Positions 14,416-63,290 of a stretch of DNA of 64,000 nucleotides are shown piece by piece. The notes under the pieces are model-generated. The model was not told the DNA's origin, did not search any database, and saw only the letters and a program-made list of their open reading frames with translations. The stretch is taken from positions 1 through 64,000 of the forward strand of contig CAIMFV010000027.1 in NCBI GenBank assembly GCA_903840435.1, written 5' to 3'. How positions within the stretch are numbered: position 1 is the first letter of the stretch; each line of letters opens with the position of its first letter. The stretch is from an uncultured Caulobacterales bacterium (GTDB lineage: Bacteria > Pseudomonadota > Alphaproteobacteria > Caulobacterales > Caulobacteraceae). The translations under genes were made by a program, and so were the position numbers.

Positions 14416-16062
14416 TCAGGCCACGGCCCGCTCATCCCTGGGTAAGGGCGCCCTGCCCCGGATTTGATCGGCGATCTTCTCAGCGATCATGATGGTCGGC
14501 GCATTGGTATTGCCGCCAATGAGGGTGGGCATGACAGAGGCATCGACGACGCGCAGGCCTTCCAGCCCAAAGACCTTCAGGTCCTTATCAACCACGGCGG
14601 TTTCATCGCCAGCCACCCCCATCTTACAGGTGCCGACCGGATGGTAGATGGTCTCGCCCTTGGCGCGGATAAAGGCGTCGATCTCGGCGTCGGTGCGCAC
14701 ACTCTCGCCGGGCGCGATTTCGGCCCCGCGATAAGGCTTGAGCGCGTCTTGCGCCACAATGTCCCTGGCCATTTTGACCCCTTCACGCACGGCGCGGCGG
14801 TCCTCCTCTGTGGAGAGGAAGTTCGACAAGATGGCGGGATCGGCTTCGGGGTCGGCGCTGCGTAAATCAACACGCCCTCGGCTTTCCGGGCGCAATTGGC
14901 AGACGTGCAGGGTAAAGCCGTCTTCTTTGAACTGCACCTTGGCGTGCTCCTGCATCAGGGCGAGCACGAAGTGGTATTGCAGGTCTGGACGGTCCAGATC
15001 GGGACGCGACTTCAAAAACGCCCCCGACTCCAGGCCGTTTTGCCGACCCGGCCCCTTGCCGGTCAGCATGTATTGCAGACCGACCGCCAACTGCTTCAAG
15101 CCCTTGGTTTGCGAATAAAGCGTGATGGGCTGGGTGCATTTCCAGTTCAGCGTCACATCCAGGTGGTCTTGCAAATTGGCACCCACACCCGGCAGAGCGT
15201 GAACAGCCTTGACGCCCGACTGCGCCAGGCGGTCTGGGTCGCCAATCCCGGACAGGTTGAGGATTTGCGGCGATTGGAAGGCACCGGCGCACAACAGAAC
15301 CTCGCGCTCGGCATGGGCCGTCTGCATGTCTGTCGACCCCGCAATGCGGTAATCGACGCCGACCGCCCGGCCCTTTTCAAGGCGGATCTTATGGGTGCGC
15401 GCGCCCAGGGCGACGGTCAAATTGGGGCGACTTTTCAGGATCGGGTTCAAATAGCCCTCCGCCGCGCTCCAGCGACGCCCGTCCTTGATGGTCAATTGGT
15501 AGCGGCCAAAGCCCTCTTGCGCCGCGCCGTTAAAGTCTTGCGTCACCGCATAGCCCGCCTGCCGTCCGGCCTCGATGACGCCGGTATAGAGGGGGTGACT
15601 GGACCGCTCGCCCCAACTGACGCTCAAAGGGCCATCGGCGCCGTGATAATCATTGGCGCCGTCTTGGAAGCTTTCGGCCTTTTTGAAATAGGGCAGCGCA
15701 TCGGCATAGGACCAGCCTTCCAGGCCCATTTGCCGCCATTGATCATAGTCGCTGGCATGGCCGCGAATATAGATCATGCCATTGATGGCCGAGGAGCCGC
15801 CAAGCCCCCGACCTCTGGGGTGCCAGAGCTTGCGCCCCTCCATATGGGGCTCAGGCTCGCTCCAAAAGCCCCAATTAAAATCGCTCTTTTGCTTGATCAG
15901 CGTGCCAACGCCTGCGGGCATACGGACCAGGATCGAGGTGTTCTTGCCACCCGCTTCAAGCAGCAGCACCTTCACATCCGGGTCCTCCGTCAGACGCGCT
16001 GCCAAGACCGACCCGGCGCTGCCGCCCCCAATGATGACATAGTCGTAGCGCGACCCAGCCAT
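14416..16062 (-). CDS. GMC-family FAD oxidoreductase (choline/alcohol dehydrogenase-like)
   Basis: A 548-residue flavoprotein of the glucose-methanol-choline family. The FAD-binding GGGSAGSVLAARL segment is at residues 12-24. GRGLGGSSAINGMIYIRG (the first GMC signature) is near residue 80, and GAFQSPQILNLSGIG (the second) near 258. The C-terminal active-site His and the GGNTNAPTIMIAEKIAD segment are present. Closest in style to BetA and AlkJ-type alcohol dehydrogenases; substrate unknown. No signal peptide is present, so it is cytoplasmic or membrane-peripheral. It is monocistronic, ending about 15 bp from the operator region of the SatD-like unit. Confidence 0.93.
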   Translation of the reverse strand: MAGSRYDYVIIGGGSAGSVLAARLTEDPDVKVLLLEAGGKNTSILVRMPAGVGTLIKQKSDFNWGFWSEPEPHMEGRKLWHPRGRGLGGSSAINGMIYIRGHASDYDQWRQMGLEGWSYADALPYFKKAESFQDGANDYHGADGPLSVSWGERSSHPLYTGVIEAGRQAGYAVTQDFNGAAQEGFGRYQLTIKDGRRWSAAEGYLNPILKSRPNLTVALGARTHKIRLEKGRAVGVDYRIAGSTDMQTAHAEREVLLCAGAFQSPQILNLSGIGDPDRLAQSGVKAVHALPGVGANLQDHLDVTLNWKCTQPITLYSQTKGLKQLAVGLQYMLTGKGPGRQNGLESGAFLKSRPDLDRPDLQYHFVLALMQEHAKVQFKEDGFTLHVCQLRPESRGRVDLRSADPEADPAILSNFLSTEEDRRAVREGVKMARDIVAQDALKPYRGAEIAPGESVRTDAEIDAFIRAKGETIYHPVGTCKMGVAGDETAVVDKDLKVFGLEGLRVVDASVMPTLIGGNTNAPTIMIAEKIADQIRGRAPLPRDERAVA

Positions 16063-16239: not shown

Positions 16240-16551
16240 GCGGGCGTGGCGAAATCGGTAGACGCAACAGACTTAGACAATCTTGAGTGCGCCTTGGGAA
16301 ACCTTGGACGTAGAACTGCTCAAATTCGGGGAAACCTTGACTGGCAATCCCGAGCCAAGCCGTCCGGTGCATACGCGCCCGGCGGAAGGTGTAGAGACTA
16401 GACGGGCAGCACCTAAAAACGCGAAGGCGTCACGGTGAAGGGATAGTCCAGACCCCAAACCGCCCCAAGGGGCAGGCGGCGAAAGCCGTAGCGGGTACGA
16501 AAATCTGTCGGGGGAAACCCCATGCCGGTTCAAGTCCGGCCGCCCGCACCA
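16240..16551 (+). tRNA. tRNA-Leu(UAA) interrupted by a group I intron
   Basis: Exon 1 (16240-16274) starts GCGGGCG and contains the D-arm GGCGAAATCGGTAGACGC and the 5' anticodon strand ACAGA followed by CTT. Exon 2 (16500-16551) starts AAAATCTGT, then the long variable arm CGGGGGAAACCCC, the T-arm GCCGGTTCAAGTCCGGC and CGCCCGC plus encoded CCA. Joined, the exons give 87 nt with a seven-base anticodon loop CUUAAAA, i.e. anticodon UAA, interrupted after the wobble U34. The intervening 225 nt have the conserved core of a group I intron. Acceptor and T stems pair fully. Confidence 0.92.
16275..16499 (+). ncRNA. Self-splicing group I intron (IC3-like) in tRNA-Leu(UAA)
   Basis: A 225-nt intron without an open frame. 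The 5' exon ends in U, and CUU can pair with the internal guide GAG (TCTTGAG at about 16281-16287), giving a U.G pair at the splice site. The conserved core elements are readable in order: P (AAATTCGGGGAAACC, about 16322-16336), Q (GGCAATCCCGAGCCAAGC, about 16343-16360), R (GTGTAGAGACTAGACGGG, about 16390-16407) and S (GGGATAGTCCAGAC, about 16440-16453). GC-rich P9-type hairpins follow, and the intron ends in G (16499). The insertion point is that of the cyanobacterial/plastid tRNA-Leu intron. Confidence 0.9.
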
Positions 16552-16611
16552 ACCTTTCAGAGCCGCTGCGCGACGCGGATGACAACAGACTCCCAAAAAA
16601 CTTGACGGACA

Positions 16612-16627
16612 TTGTCAAATATGACAA
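16612..16627. promoter_or_regulatory. Palindrome TTGTCA-N4-TGACAA at the toxin-antitoxin start
   Basis: A perfect inverted repeat that overlaps the proposed start codon of the HigB-like toxin. Antitoxins of this class usually repress their own operon through such palindromes, so it is a good candidate HigA operator (inference). Confidence 0.55.
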
Positions 16628-16983
16628 CAAAAACTCGTGTCCGTGACACTCGGAAAATCAGCTGGATCGCGGCGGCTCGGAAGGATTTCACTGACTTCCC
16701 ACCCAAAGCACAGCACCGTGCCGCTGAGGCCCTAACGCTCGTTGCGGATGGAGCGACACCTGATATTGCAAAGCCCCTCACAAATCTTGGATCGGGCGTT
16801 TGGGAGCTGGCGATCAAAGACCGTGGCGACGCCTATCGCGTCGTCTATGCGCTCCACATCGGCGATGAGGTTTGGGTGGTTCACGCCTTCCAGAAGAAAT
16901 CAAAGACTGGCATCGCGACACCGAGGACGGAGATCAATTTGGTGCGTGAACGAATCAAGCGTTTGAAGGAAGCACTGGCATGA
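16621..16983 (+). CDS. HigB/Gp49-like toxin of a type II toxin-antitoxin pair
   Basis: About 120 residues of the RelE/HigB superfamily, subgroup phage-derived Gp49-like. Visible hallmarks are the LGSGVWELAIKD segment, the DAYRVVYAL strand and VVHAFQKKSKTG, ending in a basic helix. Members cleave mRNA on the ribosome. The ATG at 16621 lies inside a palindrome; a TTG nine bases upstream is an alternative start. The antitoxin gene overlaps by 4 nt, in the toxin-first order typical of higBA. It sits about 70 nt downstream of the intron-bearing tRNA-Leu, a common landing place for mobile DNA. Confidence 0.88.
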   Translation: MTTKTRVRDTRKISWIAAARKDFTDFPPKAQHRAAEALTLVADGATPDIAKPLTNLGSGVWELAIKDRGDAYRVVYALHIGDEVWVVHAFQKKSKTGIATPRTEINLVRERIKRLKEALA

Positions 16984-17303
16984 GCAAGGAAACGCTAGAA
17001 ATCATCGAAGGTAGCGGCAATGTATTTCGCGACCTCGGTATGGAAGATGCGGATCTGCGCCAGTTGAAGACTTTGCTTGCTGCAGAGATCATCAAAATAC
17101 TTGATGAACACGAACTAACCGTTCGCGAAGCGGCCGTTCGCACCGGCTTTGCAGCTGCTGATTTTTCACGACTTCGCAACGTAAAACTCGACCGCTTTAC
17201 TGTTGATCGGCTCATGACGATGGTGAACAAACTCGGACAGGACGTGAGCGTTCAACTGTCTTTTCGACCCCGCCAAGAGCAGGCTGCGAACGCCCACATT
17301 TGA
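16980..17303 (+). CDS. HigA-like antitoxin, XRE-type DNA-binding protein
   Basis: A 107-residue protein with a helix-turn-helix of the XRE/HTH_37 kind: the segment LTVREAAVRTGFAAADFSRL followed by KLDRFTVDRLMTMVNKLG. The N-terminal 40 residues (GSGNVFRDLGMEDADLR) are characteristic of HigA2-type antitoxins paired with Gp49-like toxins. It neutralises the upstream toxin and probably represses the operon at the palindrome 16612-16627. It overlaps the toxin gene by 4 nt (ATGA). Confidence 0.88.
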   Translation: MSKETLEIIEGSGNVFRDLGMEDADLRQLKTLLAAEIIKILDEHELTVREAAVRTGFAAADFSRLRNVKLDRFTVDRLMTMVNKLGQDVSVQLSFRPRQEQAANAHI

Positions 17304-17409: not shown

Positions 17410-18654
17410 TCATGAAGTTTCCTCGACTGGTTTGTCGGGAAAGAGGCCCGGCATCCAGCGCGATGCGAGGGCTGCGGGAAAACCTAAGCGAAGCGGGGAA
17501 CGTGCGCTTTCCGAGACAATGACGTCCCGCTCCGCCAGCCTATTGACGATGCGGCGGGCTTGCCGATCAACCACACCCAGCATCGGCGCGATCTCCGCTC
17601 GGCGCACCTCACCTCGATGCAACAGCGCTTCAAGCAGGGTCAGTGCCTGATGCGGCAGTTTGCCGAGTCGCTTTTCTTCTTCGGCCCAAAGCATGACCCG
17701 CACGCGCAGCCGGTCAGGCTGCATCATGGTCTCCATAAAATTCACCTGATCGAGACTGAGGCGCAGATAGAATTCAGTGAATTCGACCAGCGCTGCTTCG
17801 CTTAGCGTTCCTCGACCATCAAGATCATTTCGGCGGAGCTGATCACAATTGGCAAGGTGCATCTTGTAATCGCGCGCATGACGGCCCAGCCCACGGGCGA
17901 TGGACCAGAGCCCGCCTGTGTCGAGCAGATCAAGATAAAGCGCGTGCGACATGAGGCGGGTGACACGGCCATTGCCATCCAAAAAGGGGTGAATCCACGC
18001 CAACCTGTGGTGGGCGGCGGCGGCGGCCACGATCAGTCCAGCCTTGCCTTGCTGGGCAAATGCAGCTTCGAATCGTTGCAGGAAGCGCGGAACCGCGCCT
18101 GGGCTTATGCCGTCATGTTTGCCTATACGCACGTCACGATGGCGCAGCCTGCCAGGAATAATCCGGACGCGTTCGCCACTCACCCGGTTGGTCGCCCAAC
18201 AAAGAGCGTCTGGCAGGTTTTCGTAAAAGCGTCGGTGGATCTCGCAGATCCCGTCCACCGACAGCGACCTTCGTGCGAGCGCGCCGCCATCAATCCAGGT
18301 TTGCACAGCGATATGCGCCTTCGCTTCAATCTGCAGGTCGCGCTTTTTTGGATCGGCGCTGTAGTCGTTCTTAAGCGCCCGCTCGATATCGATGGGATGG
18401 GTGTCATGGCCTTCGATGAGATTACTGTAATAGCAATTCATCGAGCGCACTAAACTCGCAAGCGATGGGACGAGACTTGGCGGCAAGCTACGGCGGAATC
18501 CAGCCGACTTCTGCCCCAGTTCAAAAGCGAGATCATTCAGCAGGCCGCGACTGCGGCAATCCTCAGCCAGCACCACTGGCTCCATCAATCCAAGGGATTC
18601 TCCCCGGTCGACGACCGCCGAAATGTCCGCTTCTATGTCCGGTTCGCTTTCCAT
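17410..18654 (-). CDS. Fic-domain protein (probable AMPylase) with winged helix
   Basis: About 414 residues. The Fic core carries the intact motif HPFLDGNGR (residues 222-230), the active site for transfer of AMP or related groups to target hydroxyls. Upstream, residues 77-82 (SNLIEG) match the inhibitory (S/T)xxxE(G/N) motif of the N-terminal-helix (class II) Fic enzymes, so the protein should be self-inhibited. The C-terminal 100 residues look like a winged helix (LGVVDRQARRIVNRL). The ATG at 18654 is preferred over the upstream start at 18696. It stands alone next to the HigBA pair, in the opposite orientation. Confidence 0.9.
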   Translation of the reverse strand: MESEPDIEADISAVVDRGESLGLMEPVVLAEDCRSRGLLNDLAFELGQKSAGFRRSLPPSLVPSLASLVRSMNCYYSNLIEGHDTHPIDIERALKNDYSADPKKRDLQIEAKAHIAVQTWIDGGALARRSLSVDGICEIHRRFYENLPDALCWATNRVSGERVRIIPGRLRHRDVRIGKHDGISPGAVPRFLQRFEAAFAQQGKAGLIVAAAAAHHRLAWIHPFLDGNGRVTRLMSHALYLDLLDTGGLWSIARGLGRHARDYKMHLANCDQLRRNDLDGRGTLSEAALVEFTEFYLRLSLDQVNFMETMMQPDRLRVRVMLWAEEEKRLGKLPHQALTLLEALLHRGEVRRAEIAPMLGVVDRQARRIVNRLAERDVIVSESARSPLRLGFPAALASRWMPGLFPDKPVEETS

Positions 18655-18958
18655 GGTTTTTTCATTATAACAGAAACTTATTAAACTTACAGCCAAGCTT
18701 TGCGCGACAAAAATGTCCGCATATGATTCCGCTGCTGGCGGTGAATTGCAAGCTGTCTTCCGGCGTTAGGAAAGGAACTCAGCGCAGAGGGACGTGGCGC
18801 GCGGTTTCGATCTCGACCTGCAAACCAGAAACTGCATTTTGGAATTGGTTTTTGATGCTAAATCCTCGGGGCGTCGCACGCTTGGGGATTTTGCCGTCCT
18901 TGCGAATTAAGACGTCCCTGCACCCGGTGCGGAGGTTCGATCCTGAGGGAGACACGCG
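18655..18958. other. Intergenic region between the Fic and S9 peptidase genes
   Basis: About 300 bases with no supported gene. The part next to the Fic start is AT-rich (TTCATTATAACAG, TTATTAAACTTAC) and probably holds its promoter. The right end has a GAGGGAG ribosome-binding site for the peptidase. Short open frames through it lack any family resemblance. Confidence 0.4.
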
Positions 18959-21064
18959 TTGACATCGCACATTTCGTTGGCCCGCATTGGCGCGGTTGTT
19001 TCAGCCTTCGCGCTCACAACATTTGGCGCAGCGTCTGTTACTGCGGCCCAGAGCGCGCCGGGGACTGAGGCTTTTACGGCGCGGGACATGGTGAAGTTGG
19101 AGCGGATTTCCGACGCGCATGTCTCGCCCGACGGCAGCCTGATTGTCTATGACCAGCGCAGCGTCGATTTCGCTGCCAATGCCAGCCATCACGCCCTGTG
19201 GTTGGTGGAGGCCAAGCCCGGCGCGACGCCGCATCGTCTCGCCGCCTCTGACCCCGATGCCACCCACCCGCGCTGGTCGGCGGACGGAAAGGCCCTCTAT
19301 TTCCTCTCCAATCGCTCTGGCTCAGCCCAGGTCTGGCGGACGGACGTCAGCGGCGCGACAGCGGTGCAGGTAACCAAGCTGCCGCTCGATGTGGCGGAAT
19401 TTCGCCTCGCGCCCGACATGAAGACGCTGGTGGTGGCGCTGGCTGTGCGGCCCGACTGCCCTGACCTCGCCTGCACAGTCGCGGCGGCAAAGAAGCCCGC
19501 CGACCAAAAGGCCAGCGGCGTTGTTTATGATCATCTTTTTGTCCGCCATTGGGATAGTTGGGCCGATGGGACGCGCAATCACCTGTTTGCGCTCGCTCTC
19601 ACGACAAGTGGCGAGGTCGACGGTACGCCGCGGGACCTAATGCCTGGCTTTGACGGGGATAGCCCCGGCAAGCCGTTTGGCGGCGACGCCGACTTCGTGA
19701 TTTCTCCCGATGGCGCAACCTTGGTGTTTTCCGCCCGCCTTGCCGGTCGCACCGAGCCGTGGAGTACGAATTTCGACCTTTACAGCACAAGCTTGCGCGC
19801 CCCCGGCCCCTTGACCAATTTAACCGCTGCAAATCTCGCCGAAGACATCGCGCCGAGCTTTTCGCCAGATGGCGGCAAGCTCGCTTGGCTTGCCATGAAA
19901 CGCCCTACCTTCGAGGCTGATCGCCTTGGCATCATGGTCCGCGACTTGAAATCGGGCGACACCCGCGAAGTCGATGCAAACTTTGATCGGTCCGCCGAGA
20001 AGATCGCCTGGGACGCAGATGGCAAGGGCCTGTTGCTGACCACAGAAGATGTCGGGCAGGTGCGGCTCTTCCACCTCGACCTCGCCAGCGGCGCGACGAA
20101 AGCTCTAACCGATCAAGGCCACGTGGCGGACTTTGATCGCGCAGGCAAGACCTTGGTGATCGCCAAGGATGATCTACAACATCCCGACGATCTTTATCTG
20201 CGTGACGCGAAAGGCCTCTGGACGCAATTGACCTTTGTCAATGCCGACACCTTAAAGCCGCTGGCTTTCAGTGCGGCTGAGCAGTTCACCTTCCAGGGCT
20301 GGAACGGTGAAACCGTGCATGGCTATGTGGTCAAGCCCAAGGACTTCCAAGCGGGAAAGCGCTATCCCACCGCCTTTCTCATTCACGGCGGACCGCAAGG
20401 CTCGTTCGGCAATAGCTGGAGCTATCGCTGGAACCCGCAAACCTATGCCAGTCGCGGTTACGCAGTGGTGATGATCGATTTCCACGGCTCCACCGGCTAT
20501 GGTCAGGCTTTTACCGATGCCATCAGTGGCCATTGGGGCGACCGCCCCCTCGAGGACCTGCAAAAGGGCTGGGCAGCGGCGCAAGTCCGCTATCCCTTCA
20601 TCGACGCCGACCGGGCCTGTGCCTTGGGCGCCTCCTATGGCGGGTTCATGATCTATTGGATTGCTGGCAATTGGTCCAAGCCCTGGAAGTGCTTGGTTGA
20701 TCATGATGGCGTGTTCGATAACCGCATGATGGGCTATTCAACTGAAGAGCTCTGGTTTTCCGAATGGGAAAATGGCCATGCCACGCCTTGGGCTGATCCG
20801 GCGGCCTATGAGCGCTTTAACCCGATCACCCATGTGGCCGACTGGGATAAGCCCATGTTGGTCATCCACTCCGCCAAGGATTACCGCATCCCGCTTGAAC
20901 AGGGCTTGGCCGCCTTCACCGCCCTGCAACGTAAGGGAATAGAAAGCCGCTTCCTGACCTTCCCCGATGAAAACCACTGGGTGCTGAAGCCGCAAAATTC
21001 GGTCATCTGGCACGATACGGTCGAGGGCTGGCTGGCCAAATGGATCGGAACCGAGCCGCATTAG
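18959..21064 (+). CDS. S9-family prolyl-oligopeptidase-like peptidase, exported
   Basis: A 701-residue peptidase. The TTG start, 7 nt after GAGGGAG, begins a signal peptide (hydrophobic about residues 9-29, TAAQS site). A beta-propeller with WD/PD40-type repeats (ISPDG, FSPDG, HPRWSADGK) fills residues 50-430. The C-terminal alpha/beta-hydrolase domain has the nucleophile in GASYGGF (Ser559), the Asp in HSAKDYRIP and the His in DENHWV. It belongs to the DPP/acyl-peptide-hydrolase-like S9 group, which releases dipeptides or acylated residues. It is monocistronic, followed by a long tandem-repeat array. Confidence 0.94.
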   Translation: MTSHISLARIGAVVSAFALTTFGAASVTAAQSAPGTEAFTARDMVKLERISDAHVSPDGSLIVYDQRSVDFAANASHHALWLVEAKPGATPHRLAASDPDATHPRWSADGKALYFLSNRSGSAQVWRTDVSGATAVQVTKLPLDVAEFRLAPDMKTLVVALAVRPDCPDLACTVAAAKKPADQKASGVVYDHLFVRHWDSWADGTRNHLFALALTTSGEVDGTPRDLMPGFDGDSPGKPFGGDADFVISPDGATLVFSARLAGRTEPWSTNFDLYSTSLRAPGPLTNLTAANLAEDIAPSFSPDGGKLAWLAMKRPTFEADRLGIMVRDLKSGDTREVDANFDRSAEKIAWDADGKGLLLTTEDVGQVRLFHLDLASGATKALTDQGHVADFDRAGKTLVIAKDDLQHPDDLYLRDAKGLWTQLTFVNADTLKPLAFSAAEQFTFQGWNGETVHGYVVKPKDFQAGKRYPTAFLIHGGPQGSFGNSWSYRWNPQTYASRGYAVVMIDFHGSTGYGQAFTDAISGHWGDRPLEDLQKGWAAAQVRYPFIDADRACALGASYGGFMIYWIAGNWSKPWKCLVDHDGVFDNRMMGYSTEELWFSEWENGHATPWADPAAYERFNPITHVADWDKPMLVIHSAKDYRIPLEQGLAAFTALQRKGIESRFLTFPDENHWVLKPQNSVIWHDTVEGWLAKWIGTEPH

Positions 21065-21139: not shown

Positions 21140-21693
21140 CCGCTCATACCGGCGAAGGCCGGTATCCAGGGGTCATCCACCAACCTCAGCAGGCCCGTCC
21201 CTGGACCCCGGCCTACGCCGGGGGGAGCGGGGGTTAGGTGGTGCTCAATTTCTTCCGCTCATACCTGCGAAGGCCGGTATCCAGGGGATCATCCCCAACC
21301 CTCGGCGGGCCCTTCCCTGATTCCCGGCCTCGGCCAGGACGAGCGGTTTTTATGTTGAATATCAATTACATCCGCTCATACCGGCGAAGGCCGGTATCCA
21401 GGAGATCATCCCAACCGTCTGCAGGCCCGTCCCTGGACCCCGGCCTCCGCCGGGGGGAGCGGGGGAAAGGTGGTCCTCAACAATATCCGCTCATACCGGC
21501 GAAGGCCGGTATCCAGGGGATCATCCACAAACGTCTGCAGGCCCGTCCCTGGACGCCGGCCTACGCCGGGGGGAGCGGTTTTTATGTGGAATATCAATCA
21601 TATCCGCTCATACCTGCGAAGGCCGGTATCCAGGAGATCATCCACAAACGTCTGCGGGCCCGTCCCTGGACCCCGGCCTACGCCGGGGTGAGC
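21140..21693 (+). repeat. Tandem array of five double-hairpin repeats
   Basis: Five units start at 21140, 21255, 21372, 21487 and 21604, a period of 115-117 bases. Each unit begins CCGCTCATACC and has two perfect or near-perfect hairpins. The first is ATACCGGC-GAAG-GCCGGTAT; the second is CCCCGGC-CTAC-GCCGGGG followed by GGAGCG. They are separated by about 35 bases containing CAGGCCCGTCCCTGGA. Some second arms have drifted (unit 2). Partial copies in the opposite orientation lie at 9078-9330. The units fit a dispersed REP/RUP-like intergenic family. Open frames through them translate into Arg/Pro-rich repeats and are not genes. Confidence 0.92.
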
Positions 21694-21712
21694 GGCGGAA
21701 AATTTTTGGTTT

Positions 21713-22384
21713 TCAATAACCTAAAGAATTTTCCGCATCAGCACCGCCAAATACCCGTTCATACAGCGCCCGGACCATGCCTGCCGTGGCGCCCCAGATC
21801 AACGGGCCGTCATGGGGCATGGCGTAGTAGCGCCGCGCCTCCCCTTCTGCCGTGGTCCAGGTGCGCTGCTCATGATTAGTCGGGTCCATGAGAAAGGAAA
21901 ACGGCGTCTCGAAGACCTCGGCCACCTCAGACGGGTCGGGCTTGGCGATGAAGTCGGGCGGAATGAAACCAACCACCGGTGTAATCAGATAGCCTGTTCC
22001 GGTCGCATAAAGATCACCAAGACCGAGCAACTGGACGCAGGCCGGATCGAGGCCAATTTCCTCCTGCGCCTCGCGAAGCGCCGTCGTCCAGGGCGTTTCC
22101 CCTGGCTCGGCCCGACCGCCCGGAAAGGCCACCTGACCAGAATGGTGGCGTAAAGACTCTGACCGCCGTGTGAGCAGTACGCTTACCCCCGCTTCGCGGA
22201 CAATCAACGGCGTCAAGACCGCCGCAGGCTTTAAGTCACTTAAGCCCCAATCCCGCAGGCGCGGATCGACTTCCTCAGCATTGAGATGCAGATGCATGCG
22301 GGCTGGGTCATAGGTTTCGATAGGGTGCAGGCGTCGGCGCAGATGGGCTTCCAGCTGCAAAACGGGCGCGTCCGGACCGATCAC
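21713..22384 (-). CDS. Nudix hydrolase, NudL/CoA-pyrophosphatase type
   Basis: A 223-residue Nudix protein. The box lies at residues 89-112 with the conserved pattern GG-x5-E-x7-RE-x2-EE-x-G intact (catalytic REAQEEIGL end). The LRHHSGQVAFPGG lead-in is typical of CoA diphosphatases that split CoA into 3',5'-ADP and phosphopantetheine. The C-terminal GATAGMVRALYERV segment also fits. Its start overlaps the DUF1285 gene by 4 nt, a frequent neighbourhood in alphaproteobacteria. Confidence 0.9.
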   Translation of the reverse strand: MIGPDAPVLQLEAHLRRRLHPIETYDPARMHLHLNAEEVDPRLRDWGLSDLKPAAVLTPLIVREAGVSVLLTRRSESLRHHSGQVAFPGGRAEPGETPWTTALREAQEEIGLDPACVQLLGLGDLYATGTGYLITPVVGFIPPDFIAKPDPSEVAEVFETPFSFLMDPTNHEQRTWTTAEGEARRYYAMPHDGPLIWGATAGMVRALYERVFGGADAENSLGY

Positions 22385-41176: not shown

Positions 41177-42445
41177 TCAATCCGAAGCGGCGTCATTGCC
41201 GATCAAGCTATCGGCGCGGCGCAATTCTGGAAAGAGTTTGGCCCAGACGCCTGTGACGAGGACCGCGCCCACGCCGCCGAGCAGGGCCGCGAGGACGGGG
41301 CCAAGCAAGCGGGCCGCCACGCCGGACTCAAACTCACCCAATTCGTTCGAGGCGCCGATGAAGACGCCAGAAACAGCCGCAACGCGCCCGCGCATGGCGT
41401 CGGGCGTCGTCGCCTGGACCAAGGTCTGACGGACATAGACGCTGACCATGTCAGCCCCGCCCAGAACTGCCAGGGCGAGAAGCGATACGGCTAAGATGCG
41501 CGACGCCGCAAAAAGGATGGTTGCCAAGCCAAAGACGGCCACGGCTGAAAACATCCAAATGCCAGCCTTTCGGCGCAAGGGTCTGCGTCCCAAAGCAAAG
41601 GCCATGGTAGCCGCGCCGATCGCCGGCGCTGAGCGCAGCAGGCCAAAGCCTTGCGAGCCCACATGCAAGATGTCGCGGGCGAAAACCGGCAAGAGCGCCG
41701 TCGCCCCGCCTAAAAGCACGGCGAACAGGTCAAGCGAAATGGCACCCAGCACCAGCCGGTTCTGAAACACATAGATCAGCCCTTCCTTGACCGCAGCCAA
41801 ATTGGCGCCGCGGCCGGGGGTGCGGACGCGCGGCGGTCCGGTAAAGCTCAAGGCAGTGAGCGAGACGAGGTAGCAGACCCCTGCACCGCCATAAGACGTG
41901 GCCGACGAAAAGCCGCACAGGGCGCCCCCAAGCCAGGGCCCGAAAATCGCGCCGACCTGCCAGGTCAAGGAACTCATGGCAATGGCGCGCGGCAAGACCT
42001 CTGGAGGCACCAAAGATGGCCCGAGCGCGGAAAGGGCTGGACCTTGAAAGGCCCTTACCGCGCCAAATCCCGCCGCCACGGCAAAGATCAAGCCAAGCTC
42101 AGGGTGCGGCGTCTTGGCAATTTGGAACAGCACAAAGACGAGGCCGATTTCGGTAACGGCGCAGATCTGACCAATGCGGCGGCGGTCGAAATGATCCGCC
42201 ACAGCGCCTGCGACCAGGGTCAACAGAAACAGGGGCGCGAATTGCACGAGGCCGACCATGCCAACCAAAAAGGCGCTGCGTTCAACCGTCTCGGTGGCGC
42301 GGGCGACCAGATAGACCTGCCAGCCAAGGGTCACCGCCTCGACCATGACGGCAAGGGTGGCAAAGAGCCGGGCGGTGAGAAAGAAGGCGTAACTCGGATG
42401 GTCGAGCAGCCGAAAGGGCGCGGGGGCGGTCTGGGAAAGACTCAT
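41177..42445 (-). CDS. MFS exporter (EntS-like)
   Basis: About 422 residues, 12 helices, from the ATG at 42445 (MSLSQTAPAPFRLL); the frame extends upstream to 42553 but loses family resemblance. AGAVADHFDRRRIGQ (loop 2-3) and the second-half QATTPDAMRGRVAAVSGVFIGASNELGEFESG segment (residues about 350-382) fit the EntS/DHA3 group of MFS exporters, used for siderophores or drugs. It lies 65 nt upstream of the SDR gene on the same strand and could be co-transcribed. Confidence 0.88.
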   Translation of the reverse strand: MSLSQTAPAPFRLLDHPSYAFFLTARLFATLAVMVEAVTLGWQVYLVARATETVERSAFLVGMVGLVQFAPLFLLTLVAGAVADHFDRRRIGQICAVTEIGLVFVLFQIAKTPHPELGLIFAVAAGFGAVRAFQGPALSALGPSLVPPEVLPRAIAMSSLTWQVGAIFGPWLGGALCGFSSATSYGGAGVCYLVSLTALSFTGPPRVRTPGRGANLAAVKEGLIYVFQNRLVLGAISLDLFAVLLGGATALLPVFARDILHVGSQGFGLLRSAPAIGAATMAFALGRRPLRRKAGIWMFSAVAVFGLATILFAASRILAVSLLALAVLGGADMVSVYVRQTLVQATTPDAMRGRVAAVSGVFIGASNELGEFESGVAARLLGPVLAALLGGVGAVLVTGVWAKLFPELRRADSLIGNDAASD

Positions 42446-60595: not shown

Positions 60596-61848
60596 GGCGC
60601 CTTGCTCGCCTGCCCGTCAAGCGTGACCGGCGCAGGCTCTGGCAAGGCCGCCCCCTCAAGATGTGCGATCAGCTTGGGATTGGCCTTGGTCAAGGGTGTG
60701 CCTTGCTCGCCGAGGTCGAGGCTGAGGATCGGGCCATCCTGCACAACGAGATGCAGCGCCATTGACACCCGTGTCCCGCCCGGCGGCACATAGGAAGTCA
60801 CTCCGTCCCATAGCACCGGCGGCACAGCGCCGCCAAAGGCCTTTGCCAAAAGGCTGCCGCCTTCAAAAGCGGGCGCAAAACCGTTCTTGCCGATGTGGTT
60901 GTCATGCACAAAAACGTCACGCGGCAAGGGATTATAGCTCGCATCGGTGAAGGCGTTTAAATAGGCGGCGAGCAGCACAGCGGCGCTACCATTGCCATCG
61001 ATTTGGTTGTCGAACACATGCACATCGCGATTGGCCATGACCATCACGCCCGTGCCTGTCGGAACATTGGCGACAATATTGCCACGCGGGGCAAAATTGG
61101 GCGTGTCATTGTTCAAGACGGCATTGTGATAGACGCGCACGCTGTGGCCGCCCATCTGCGGCAGTCCCGGCAGGTCAAACACCAAAATGCCGCCAGCATT
61201 ATGGGTGGCAAGGTTGTCATGGACATCGGCATTGTAGCAGTTCTCGATCTCGATCCCCGCCACATTGAAAGCCGCCTTACTGTTCTCGATGATGACGAAG
61301 CGCGACTGTCCAACATAGATGCCTGCGTCCGAGGCCCCCTTGACCTCAACGCCGTCGATCAGGACGTGGCTTGAGGCGACCGGATAAACGCCATAGGCGC
61401 CGTTGGTTTCTTTCGGCCCCCCGGTCCATTCGACGCGCACCCGGCGAAAGGTGATGTCGTCGACACCCTTCGACTTAATCCCGTTGCCGCGCGCATTCTC
61501 CACCGCCAGGTCTTCGATCACTACATGGTTAGAGGTAATAAGGAGGCCATCGGACCCGGCCTTTTGCCCATCAAAAGCCAAGATGGTACGTCCAGGTCCC
61601 TCCCCGCGCACCACCACATTGGCGACGTCCAATGAAAGACTATCCGGCGCCTCAAAGCGTCCGGCGGCCAGATGGATGATATCGCCGGGCTGCGCCTCTA
61701 TCAGCGCCGATTGCAACCGCTCGCCCGAACCGGGACCCGCGGCGACTTCAATGACGCCAGGCGCAACCTCAAGGGTTTTGGCGAGGCCTGAGGTTGAGAG
61801 CGTCAGACCCGCAGTCAGGCTCACAATCGCGAGCAACAGTTTGGCCAT
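60592..61848 (-). CDS. Parallel beta-helix protein, partner of the diheme cytochrome
   Basis: A 418-residue secreted protein with a signal peptide (about 1-23, GLAKT site) and a right-handed parallel beta-helix. The repeats read VVVRGEGPGRT, VVIEDLAVENARGNGIKSKG, VLIDGVEVKGASDAGIYV, and so on to DVHVFDNQIDGNG. Beta-helix domains bind or cut polysaccharides, but no clear catalytic set is visible. It is the upstream gene of the pair, 4-nt overlap with the diheme cytochrome, so both should act on one process, possibly in the periplasm. Confidence 0.88.
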   Translation of the reverse strand: MAKLLLAIVSLTAGLTLSTSGLAKTLEVAPGVIEVAAGPGSGERLQSALIEAQPGDIIHLAAGRFEAPDSLSLDVANVVVRGEGPGRTILAFDGQKAGSDGLLITSNHVVIEDLAVENARGNGIKSKGVDDITFRRVRVEWTGGPKETNGAYGVYPVASSHVLIDGVEVKGASDAGIYVGQSRFVIIENSKAAFNVAGIEIENCYNADVHDNLATHNAGGILVFDLPGLPQMGGHSVRVYHNAVLNNDTPNFAPRGNIVANVPTGTGVMVMANRDVHVFDNQIDGNGSAAVLLAAYLNAFTDASYNPLPRDVFVHDNHIGKNGFAPAFEGGSLLAKAFGGAVPPVLWDGVTSYVPPGGTRVSMALHLVVQDGPILSLDLGEQGTPLTKANPKLIAHLEGAALPEPAPVTLDGQASKAP

Positions 61849-61880
61849 GACGATCTCCCCAAGGTTTTCTTATCGCCAAC

Positions 61881-63290
61881 CTAGCCCCTGTTCGCGGCCT
61901 CCGCCAAGGCCTCACCGGTGCTGCGCGGTCCAAATACCCCAACAGCTCCCGCAGCCACCGCCATGGCGAGCGCGATAAAGCCAAAGACACCCAACGCGCC
62001 GGAGCTCAACAGCAGGGCGCCGATGACATAGCTCGACGCCACGGTCGACAAACGGCTGAAAGCATAGACAAAGCCCACGGCCGAGGCGCGCATCGCTGTT
62101 GGATAAAGTTCAGCCTGATAGGCGTGATAGCCATAGGACAACAGATTATTGGAAAAGGTCAGGGCGACGCCTAAGGCAATAATCGCCCAAGGCGTCACCT
62201 GTTGTGACAGCGCAAGGCCCAAGGTCGCCGTACCAAAGGCCGCCAGGATAATCTGATGCTTACGCTCCAAGCGATCTGCGACCAGCGCGCACAGGACCGG
62301 GCCAACCGGATAGGCGAGCGCGATGGCAAACGCATAGCCAAGACCTTGGGTGACCGAATGCCCCTGACCCGCGATCAGTGACGGCGCCCAATTGCCAAAA
62401 CCATAAAACCCAATGGCTTGCGCAATGTTGAACACCACCAACATGAGCGTGACGCGCAGATAAGGGGGCCGAAACGCAGCCGCGAGGCCCGTTGGCGGGC
62501 AAGCCTGTGGCACAAAAGCGCGCGCCTCGTCTCCCTGGCGCGGTGGCGCAGCTTCCCTGCCCTCCAGAGCTCGTACAATTGCGTCCGCTTCCCGCCACCG
62601 CCCTTGGGCCGCGAGCCAGCGCGGACTTTCTGGCAAGCGGGCGCGGATCAGCCAAACCCCCACCGCACCGCTGGCGCCGATCAACATCACCCAACGCCAC
62701 CCTGCGACACCAAACGGACTGAGCGGCGTCAAGGTCCAGGCGATCAAGGCCACCAAGGGCACGGCAACAAATTGGATCGCCTGGTTGACAGCAAACGCGC
62801 GGCCTCTCAGCCGGGCCGGAGCAATCTCGGCGACATAGGCGTCAATGGTGACGAGTTCGACCCCAATGCCAATTCCTGAAATCAACCGCAGGAGATCAAG
62901 CTGCCAAGCTTCCGCGCAAAAGGCCATGGCAAGGGTTGCCAGGGCGTACCAAATCAAGGCGGCGGTGAAGATGGCGCGGCGACCAAACCGGTCCGCCAAG
63001 CGCGAAAACGCGATGGCGCCGATGAACAGCCCTAAAAAAGTCGCCGCAGCGAAACTTGCCTGATCACTTTGCCCAAACAATCCCTTGGGGCCTTGGTGAA
63101 ACACGCCCGCCTTGACCAGGCCCGGCGCCACATAGGCGGTCATCATCAGATCATAAAATTCAAATACGCCACCCAGCGACACGAGGCCAATCAACCGCCA
63201 GGCTGGCGCTGCGTCTGCCAAGCGATCAATGCGCCCGCCAATGTCCATGCTCTCATCCATGGGCAGGAAGGTGACCGAAATCTGCGCCAC
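61881..63290 (-). CDS. MFS transporter (sugar/aromatic acid symporter-like)
   Basis: Up to 469 residues, 12 helices. The motif RLADRFGRRAIFTAALIWYALATLA (split: residues about 100-125) between helices 2 and 3, the GIGIGVELVTIDAYVAEIAPARLRGRA stretch (about 145-172) in the first half, and ARLPESPRWL are typical of the AAHS/sugar-porter group. A start at 63290 is given; ATGs at residues 11 and 15 are alternatives. It lies 32 nt upstream of the beta-helix gene on the same strand and may belong to the same operon. Confidence 0.87.
   Translation of the reverse strand: MAQISVTFLPMDESMDIGGRIDRLADAAPAWRLIGLVSLGGVFEFYDLMMTAYVAPGLVKAGVFHQGPKGLFGQSDQASFAAATFLGLFIGAIAFSRLADRFGRRAIFTAALIWYALATLAMAFCAEAWQLDLLRLISGIGIGVELVTIDAYVAEIAPARLRGRAFAVNQAIQFVAVPLVALIAWTLTPLSPFGVAGWRWVMLIGASGAVGVWLIRARLPESPRWLAAQGRWREADAIVRALEGREAAPPRQGDEARAFVPQACPPTGLAAAFRPPYLRVTLMLVVFNIAQAIGFYGFGNWAPSLIAGQGHSVTQGLGYAFAIALAYPVGPVLCALVADRLERKHQIILAAFGTATLGLALSQQVTPWAIIALGVALTFSNNLLSYGYHAYQAELYPTAMRASAVGFVYAFSRLSTVASSYVIGALLLSSGALGVFGFIALAMAVAAGAVGVFGPRSTGEALAEAANRG

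Follow-up and report, generated by a model that had tools for sequence, protein, structure and literature searches.

In the window, the 64,000-nucleotide stretch of Caulobacterales DNA analysed here, a 225-nt group I intron splits the tRNA-Leu(UAA) gene, and relatives of the gene are found on integrase elements that lie within broken intronless tRNA-Leu(UAA) genes of their hosts. Taken as a whole, the reading that we consider probable is that the window gene is the sole, self-spliced tRNA-Leu(UAA) gene of its cell, that its family spreads as a rescue gene, that the intron shields the spare copy on the element, and that the window copy is a domesticated leftover. A broader idea, for which we see about even chances, is that a group I intron can serve as an integration shield: the core of the replacement tRNA would be cut in the DNA and the intron would be gone in the RNA, uncoupling target and immunity from tRNA function. 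This would be a route by which endonuclease-free tRNA introns spread, in elements and in at least one phage.

The intron-split tRNA-Leu(UAA) gene

When the two exons are joined, ARAGORN folds them as an 87-nt tRNA-Leu(taa), and the exons place the insertion after U34; both points had been made in the initial annotation, and both hold. Run on the unspliced window, ARAGORN reported a tRNA-Ser only and missed the split tRNA-Leu(UAA). The initial annotation had also made its case depend on a covariance-model hit, and a relaxed-threshold scan gave one, a full-model match to RF00028 (Intron_gpI) at 16265-16472 with 40.9 bits and an E value of 4.1e-9. Together with the sequence and the covariation described below, this match bears out the 225-nt group I intron with its U.G pair at the splice site and its terminal G. 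The score lies below the gathering score of 50, which is a cut-off and not a biological feature, and a default Rfam scan of the window therefore makes no intron call and, like ARAGORN, reports the tRNA-Ser only. Relatives of the intron in tRNA-Leu score above 50 bits with the same model, for example 74.4 bits at locus L108. Twister-sister and Plastid-ycf2 matches at the locus (22 and 20 bits) were below the Rfam cut-off and were rejected. The features of the gene and its neighbours are listed in Table 1.

Table 1. Features of the intron-split gene and of its surroundings, in window coordinates
Feature	Position	Strand	Remarks
GMC oxidoreductase	14416..16062	-	native left neighbour of tRNA-Leu(UAA) in three congeners
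5' exon, tRNA-Leu(UAA)	16240..16274	+	35 nt; ACUU end at U34
Attachment core GACTT/AAAA position, intron-split here	16270..16503	+	core present at attL/attR in seven related elements and in all 16 broken genes
P1	16271..16288	+	exon ACUU 16271-16274 with GAGU 16285-16288; U.G at splice site
Group I intron	16275..16499	+	225 nt; terminal G; RF00028 E 4.1e-9; covariation; order-wide homologs
P3	16316..16409	+	16316-16321 with 16404-16409; covarying; also in Daredevil intron
24-mer GGAAGGTGTAGAGACTAGACGGGC	16384..16407	+	invariant in 37 of 37 introns
P7	16396..16448	+	16396-16400 with 16444-16448; pseudoknot with P3
3' exon, tRNA-Leu(UAA)	16500..16551	+	52 nt; CCA encoded
Gp49/HigB-like toxin-family protein	16612..16983	+	PF05973; possible element cargo
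HTH_37 antitoxin-like protein	16980..17303	+	PF13744; possible element cargo
Fic-domain protein	17410..18696	-	PF02661; PADLOC SoFic 5.7e-24; possible element cargo
S9 peptidase	18959..21064	+	native right neighbour in three congeners

Covariation was assessed in an alignment of 19 intron tRNAs. Across 43 pairs from P1 to P9, 97.7% of the cells pair, compared with 90.0% in shuffled alignments, and both sides have changed at 16 of the 43 pairs, compared with a shuffled mean of 7.4; for either measure, none of 500 shuffles was as high. Sliding the partner columns by one to three positions lowered the pairing to 27-40%. The splice-site U.G pair is present in all 19 aligned relatives, and the catalytic core of group I introns, P3-P8 and P7, is present in the window intron with covariation; P4 and P6 hardly vary in the alignment and are therefore uninformative. 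The whole 312-nt gene has a folding z of -2.6. No homing endonuclease gene is contained in the 225-nt intron, and no plus-strand open reading frame of at least 80 amino acids overlaps it. A 107-amino-acid open reading frame runs antisense across the tRNA (window 16273-16596, minus strand); it resembles what we take to be the spurious antisense-tRNA proteins of annotations and should not be counted as a gene.

The genome to which the window belongs (3.5 Mb, 61 contigs, 99.9% complete) yielded 38 matches to RF00005. Its tRNA-Leu anticodons among these include CAA, CAG, UAG and GAG, and a second tRNA-Leu(UAA) is not found among the 38, though a copy might lie in a gap between the 61 contigs. An intronless UAA pattern had no match in the genome, and a DNA search at an E value of 0.001 returned the window gene as the only copy. 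The initial annotation had named an intact second tRNA-Leu(UAA), together with a failure of this copy to splice, as evidence against its reading, and these searches found no further copy in this genome. UUA accounts for 58 of 17,015 codons and occurs in 28 of the 41 called window genes of at least 200 amino acids. With a sole copy of the gene and with UUA in use, splicing would be needed for the usual reading of UUA. From the sole-copy status and the covariation, we infer that the window gene, whose intron structure is seen directly, is the cell's only known tRNA-Leu(UAA) gene and works via self-splicing.

Distribution of the intron and its carrier elements

As one of two origins, the initial annotation had offered an alphaproteobacterial line of tRNA-Leu(UAA) introns that had drawn little notice, and this alternative proved right and even understated. 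Of 398 genomes of the order, 36 contain a full-length homolog of the gene, the window's own genome included, and one genome from a separate draw, G032, brings the intron loci of the order to 37. Close homologs in the order have 70-80% identity. In the class, RF00028 gave 30 matches in 27 of 289 genomes, and at least 13 of the 30 lie in tRNA-Leu(UAA) as judged by their 3' exons, which were read by eye. In named genomes, the 24-mer GGAAGGTGTAGAGACTAGACGGGC marks at least 119 loci, which a motif count divided into 89 in tRNA-Leu(UAA), 18 in tRNA-Arg(CCU) and 12 unassigned; eight of these loci coincide with loci of the genome surveys. Among the 80 matches listed, the hosts include Caulobacter, Phenylobacterium, Brevundimonas, Bradyrhizobium, Sphingomonas, Rhodobacteraceae, Methylobacterium, Acidobacteriota and a few Gammaproteobacteria. 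Brute-force intron removal followed by ARAGORN was tried as an automatic classifier and was dropped, since it produced many false anticodons. ARAGORN reported no tRNA in six of the intron loci (L032-L037), and the intron may account for genomes that seem to miss tRNA-Leu(UAA). The earlier interpretation is thus supported in part: its lineage alternative stands, and it had overlooked the integrase element as a vehicle.

This vehicle is seen in G032, where a 7.3-kb insert splits an intronless tRNA-Leu(UAA) gene located next to the same GMC gene as the window locus. The order is the 5' half of the tRNA gene, a tyrosine integrase, a complete intron tRNA, HipBA and other cargo, and the 3' half. Two more stretches of G032 (C14:18833-18960 and C217:40192-40265) match the 3' portion of the intron tRNA and are apparently degraded copies. 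Across the 37 intron loci of the order, the 5' half of a broken intronless tRNA-Leu(UAA) gene lies upstream in 16; an integrase is located between the two in 13 of these and has been lost from the other three. An integrase without the half is found at two more loci (G507, at a contig end, and G698, a remnant), and neither integrase nor broken half is found at 19, the window included. Both halves were found in seven elements, 3.7-49 kb apart, with a common core of 9-15 nt around the anticodon, and in every one of the seven, rejoining the empty site gave an intact intronless tRNA-Leu(taa). Since the halves share a core and restore an intronless tRNA when joined, the host gene is destroyed by the elements, which bring along a complete spare with the intron. 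Half genes are present at both junctions in all seven elements, which is not the target restoration of Islander-type elements. In G032 and G051, no further intact UAA gene was found, which would fit a spare that the integrant needs to survive.

The G032 integrase, used as a query, was present in 17 of 200 genomes of the order, at 24 places by our count. Nine of these integrases belong to eight intron tRNA-Leu(UAA) modules and seven to six CAA modules; four are located beside tRNA-Met, and no tRNA was found at four. A search of the class gave matches in 10 of 289 genomes and three additional intron tRNA-Leu(UAA) modules, and the other class matches adjoin tRNA-Met, tRNA-Arg, tRNA-Leu(UAG) or a degraded half. 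By Pfam and PHROG matches, the protein is a tyrosine integrase, encoded beside the att site; its family had no match in phage records. Relaxases are present in at least two elements (G363 and G417) and a coupling protein in one, and the cargo includes AbiE and HipA family proteins, ThiF/DUF6791, iron uptake functions and glycoside hydrolases. No phage structural families were found among the scanned proteins of the partly scanned elements. As far as this partial scan goes, they look like integrative and mobilizable elements.

The same intron family occurs in tRNA-Arg(CCU), where a group I intron has been described in Alphaproteobacteria, the Bartonella intron being self-splicing in vitro and spliced in vivo (PMC7717549). 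It resembles the window intron in being a tRNA intron of the same class, with the 18 named 24-mer loci given above, yet it resides in another tRNA, and an integrase was found at 0 of the 18 loci and a duplicated 5' half at 0 of the 15 with enough upstream sequence. The corresponding counts for tRNA-Leu(UAA), from the 70 of 89 named loci with at least 1.7 kb of upstream sequence, are 17 of 70 for the integrase and 15 of 70 for the duplicated half, compared with 1 of 58 for the half in a downstream control. Two arrangements were seen in passing. At L426 (G068), a tRNA-Met is followed by an integrase and a second tRNA-Met, and a group I intron match lies approximately 340 bp beyond; this is perhaps a Met version of the module. 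At L330 (Bryobacterales) and L357, a copy resembling the 5' half lies just 83 bp before the intron tRNA, and these are perhaps compact remnants.

Comparison of the relatives shows how such an element acts. The tyrosine integrase recombines at the 9-15 nt anticodon-loop core of the host's intronless tRNA-Leu(UAA) and splits that gene permanently, and downstream of the integrase the element provides a complete tRNA-Leu(UAA) gene with the intron. The intron gene family would then spread largely as the rescue gene of integrative elements. For small tRNA introns that have no endonuclease, a vehicle is now visible, namely, an integrase element that replaces the destroyed resident gene with an intron-bearing one.

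The attachment core and the spare tRNAs

The intron interrupts the core at its middle (GACTT/AAAA). Among the modules reached through the integrase, all nine whose broken gene can be read as UAA have an intron spare, and there are two more intron spares with no readable target (G507, at a contig end, and G173, degraded). All 16 modules with a UAA half, whichever way they were found, have a UAA spare whose 9-mer core, once spliced, is identical to that of the broken gene, an identity that may be expected anyway because the listed intronless UAA genes all have one core. The core is likewise identical at 14 further named loci, a count that leaves out L300, for which the host core was not read, and L354, which is the G032 locus.

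The six CAA modules, five of which are independent (G426 and G368 are near copies), all have intronless spares with a 9-mer core unlike that of the broken gene. This difference in core between intronless spares and their targets is only suggestive. The CAA spare is not a rebuilt host gene, since in six of six the broken half and the spare have different acceptor strands. The stretches examined for the CAA modules, one of which for each of G426 and G489 lies on the wrong side of the element, contained no 3' half. Native CAA cores vary, with GAC and GAT forms in many genomes, whereas the listed intronless UAA genes share one core, which the search pattern favoured; the dichotomy between UAA and CAA modules is therefore suggestive and not a clean test. 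P1 usually needs a U before the splice site, and C34 of the CAA anticodon offers none. A C before the splice site occurs in rare cases in tmRNA introns (PMC11915505). The integrase tree mixes UAA with CAA targets, and its well-supported branches force at least four changes, so target and spare have changed together. The tree includes one long branch, G173b, whose placement is unsure, and its UAA rows from named loci and from G568, G586, G588, G596 and G646 were found via the intron and are uninformative on how frequent the intron is in modules.

Because the intron sits inside the core, the spare would not be a target of the integrase. We infer from this arrangement that the spare is shielded from the integrase of its own element; it would escape recombination while the mature tRNA stays normal. 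If this is true, a bacterial self-splicing intron would have a clear function, and the older proposal that interruption protects tRNA genes from integration would become testable.

The window intron query also matched the Gordonia phage Daredevil. In the gap before the integrase of this phage lies an unannotated tRNA-Lys(UUU) gene (NC_048021.1, complement(41821..42131)) that is split after U34 by a 238-nt intron, and its exons fold as tRNA-Lys(ttt). P3 of this intron is kept through compensating changes, and one P1 pair is lost. In cmscan, RF00028 gave no report on the Daredevil intron at an E value of 0.1, so the assignment rests on the alignment and the tRNA. Within 6 kb of Daredevil, the 13-mer GGACTTTTAATCC occurs once uninterrupted near the integrase, presumably as attP, and once split by the intron in the spare. 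Daredevil has been reported to lack such a tRNA and makes clear plaques (PMC10865867), and in view of the plaques the spare may not work. On our reading, the split tRNA-Lys(UUU) revises the reported absence of a spare tRNA, and by its sequence Daredevil would show this design independently, in a different tRNA and a different phylum. Phage Yasnaya_Polyana, assigned to subcluster K4 in an abstract, has an intronless spare, and the arm of this spare, CCGGCTTTTAACCGG, is unlike the phage's attP-like site, GAACTTTTAATCAG. Three phages with Daredevil-related integrases (L438-L440) had no tRNA in the stretch examined, which has no bearing on shielding.

Origin of the window gene and related systems

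An intact intronless tRNA-Leu(UAA) is present in all five congeners searched, and the same GMC and S9 genes flank it in the three congeners with a locus that was read. The window exons have 78-82% identity to the genes of three congeners, and their identity to intron genes from another family reaches 89.7%; the congeners' intronless genes themselves reach 94% identity to intron genes elsewhere, and the exon identity therefore supports whole-gene replacement weakly. Within the window, no integrase match and no att half-genes were found. In vestige tests, all of them weak, 27 to 188 of 300 shuffles were as high for the 3' half (four queries), and for the 5' half 7-8 of 300 near the S9 gene and 6-12 of 300 upstream. 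The DNA downstream of the gene varies also in two intronless congeners (L084 and L086), so the toxin-antitoxin and Fic cargo proves little. With the integrase and half-genes gone and the gene at its native locus, the window gene is most likely a domesticated leftover of an element event, a reading that we hold with lower confidence than the facts on its relatives. Farther downstream, an open reading frame with repeated YPLIPAKAGIQ-type peptides (window 21238-21879) is probably not a gene but a series of dispersed palindromic repeats.

The elements may simply have needed a spare and taken an intron-bearing tRNA-Leu(UAA) that was already common, with no protection by the intron. Element-free intron genes are indeed common (19 of the 37 loci), and intronless spares serve the CAA elements and Yasnaya_Polyana. 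However, those intronless spares have a differing core, the intron is present in nine of nine readable UAA modules found via the integrase compared with 36 of 398 genomes of the order with the intron gene, and Daredevil repeats the design in another tRNA and another phylum; we regard such a passive passenger as possible but doubtful. The intron could instead have entered the resident gene alone, by homing, reverse splicing or gene conversion, its link with elements being secondary. The native locus and native neighbours of the window gene fit this course, and horizontal transmission and transposition have been proposed for the related tRNA-Arg(CCU) intron (Paquin 1999). It is nevertheless unlikely in our view: at only 225 nt, the intron has no space for a homing endonuclease, the whole gene was replaced in the seven elements with both halves, and the window exons also differ from those of the congeners, the last being a weak point.

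The insertion point after U34 is, as we take it, the position of the cyanobacterial and plastid tRNA-Leu(UAA) intron, which is likewise a small, ORF-less intron in the same gene. That intron is described as ancestral there, and we know of no element vehicle for it. The shared gene (PMC4033280) would fit direct descent of the window gene from a cyanobacterium, yet close homologs with 70-80% identity occur in the same order and leave such a donor unneeded for the window gene, and this origin is very improbable. We give just as little credence to a spare tRNA that resists anticodon nucleases or phage-triggered tRNA cleavage. Such a role has been described for phage tRNAs, but the spliced spare has the host's 9-mer in 16 of 16 modules, and the mature tRNA would therefore gain no protection from the intron.

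An intron-shielded rescue gene on an integrative element, our preferred reading, has close counterparts. Spare tRNAs that rescue a destroyed host tRNA have been known since 2024 (PMC10865867, PMC11476347). In the tRNA-dependent lysogeny of actinobacteriophages (PMC10865867), a spare tRNA does so as it would here, and the related elements share the tyrosine integrase, the short core without rebuilding of the tRNA and the spare of the same isotype; at least two of the elements here differ from those phages in having relaxases. The word "intron" occurs once in the main text of that paper, in a reference title, and no shielding idea was seen there. In Sinorhizobium meliloti, phage-related sequences, also alphaproteobacterial elements, substitute their own isoacceptor for an inactivated tRNA gene (PMC11476347), and "intron" is absent from the main text. 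The hypothesis of Randau and Soll (in PMC4390854) likewise holds that interrupted tRNA genes guard against integrating elements, but it concerns disrupted tRNAs of the archaeal type that belong to the host, whereas here the interrupted gene is the element's. Alpha- and betaproteobacterial tRNA introns are known, chiefly in tRNA-Arg and tRNA-Ile (PMC4033280, PMC7717549, PMC8450103). In the accessible part of the open-access literature, no paper was found in which a group I intron is linked with a spare tRNA carried by an element.

Intron tRNAs of this kind were also seen in plasmid and viral records. Plasmid pCTX-M3 contains a complete, unannotated intron-bearing tRNA-Leu(UAA) (NC_004464.2, approximately 61823-62121; L414 4824-5122) that adjoins the aac(3)-IId region, and it may hint at the source of that region. 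Matches to at least 80% of the query were found in 1,263 plasmid records; among the matches listed, those other than pCTX-M3 have approximately 74% identity to the 5' exon and intron. The cyanobacterial-type motif had no match in the viral contigs. In 21 of 28 viral contigs, an intron with the 24-mer apparently interrupts one protein-coding gene (L387-L393, L395, L397-L401, L404-L408, L410, L411 and L413). Three viral contigs (L402, L403 and L412) have the 24-mer in a tRNA-Leu and show no match to the integrases of the modules. Two large viral contigs, L409 (543 kb) and L394 (157 kb), contain apparent introns of the same family in other tRNA genes.
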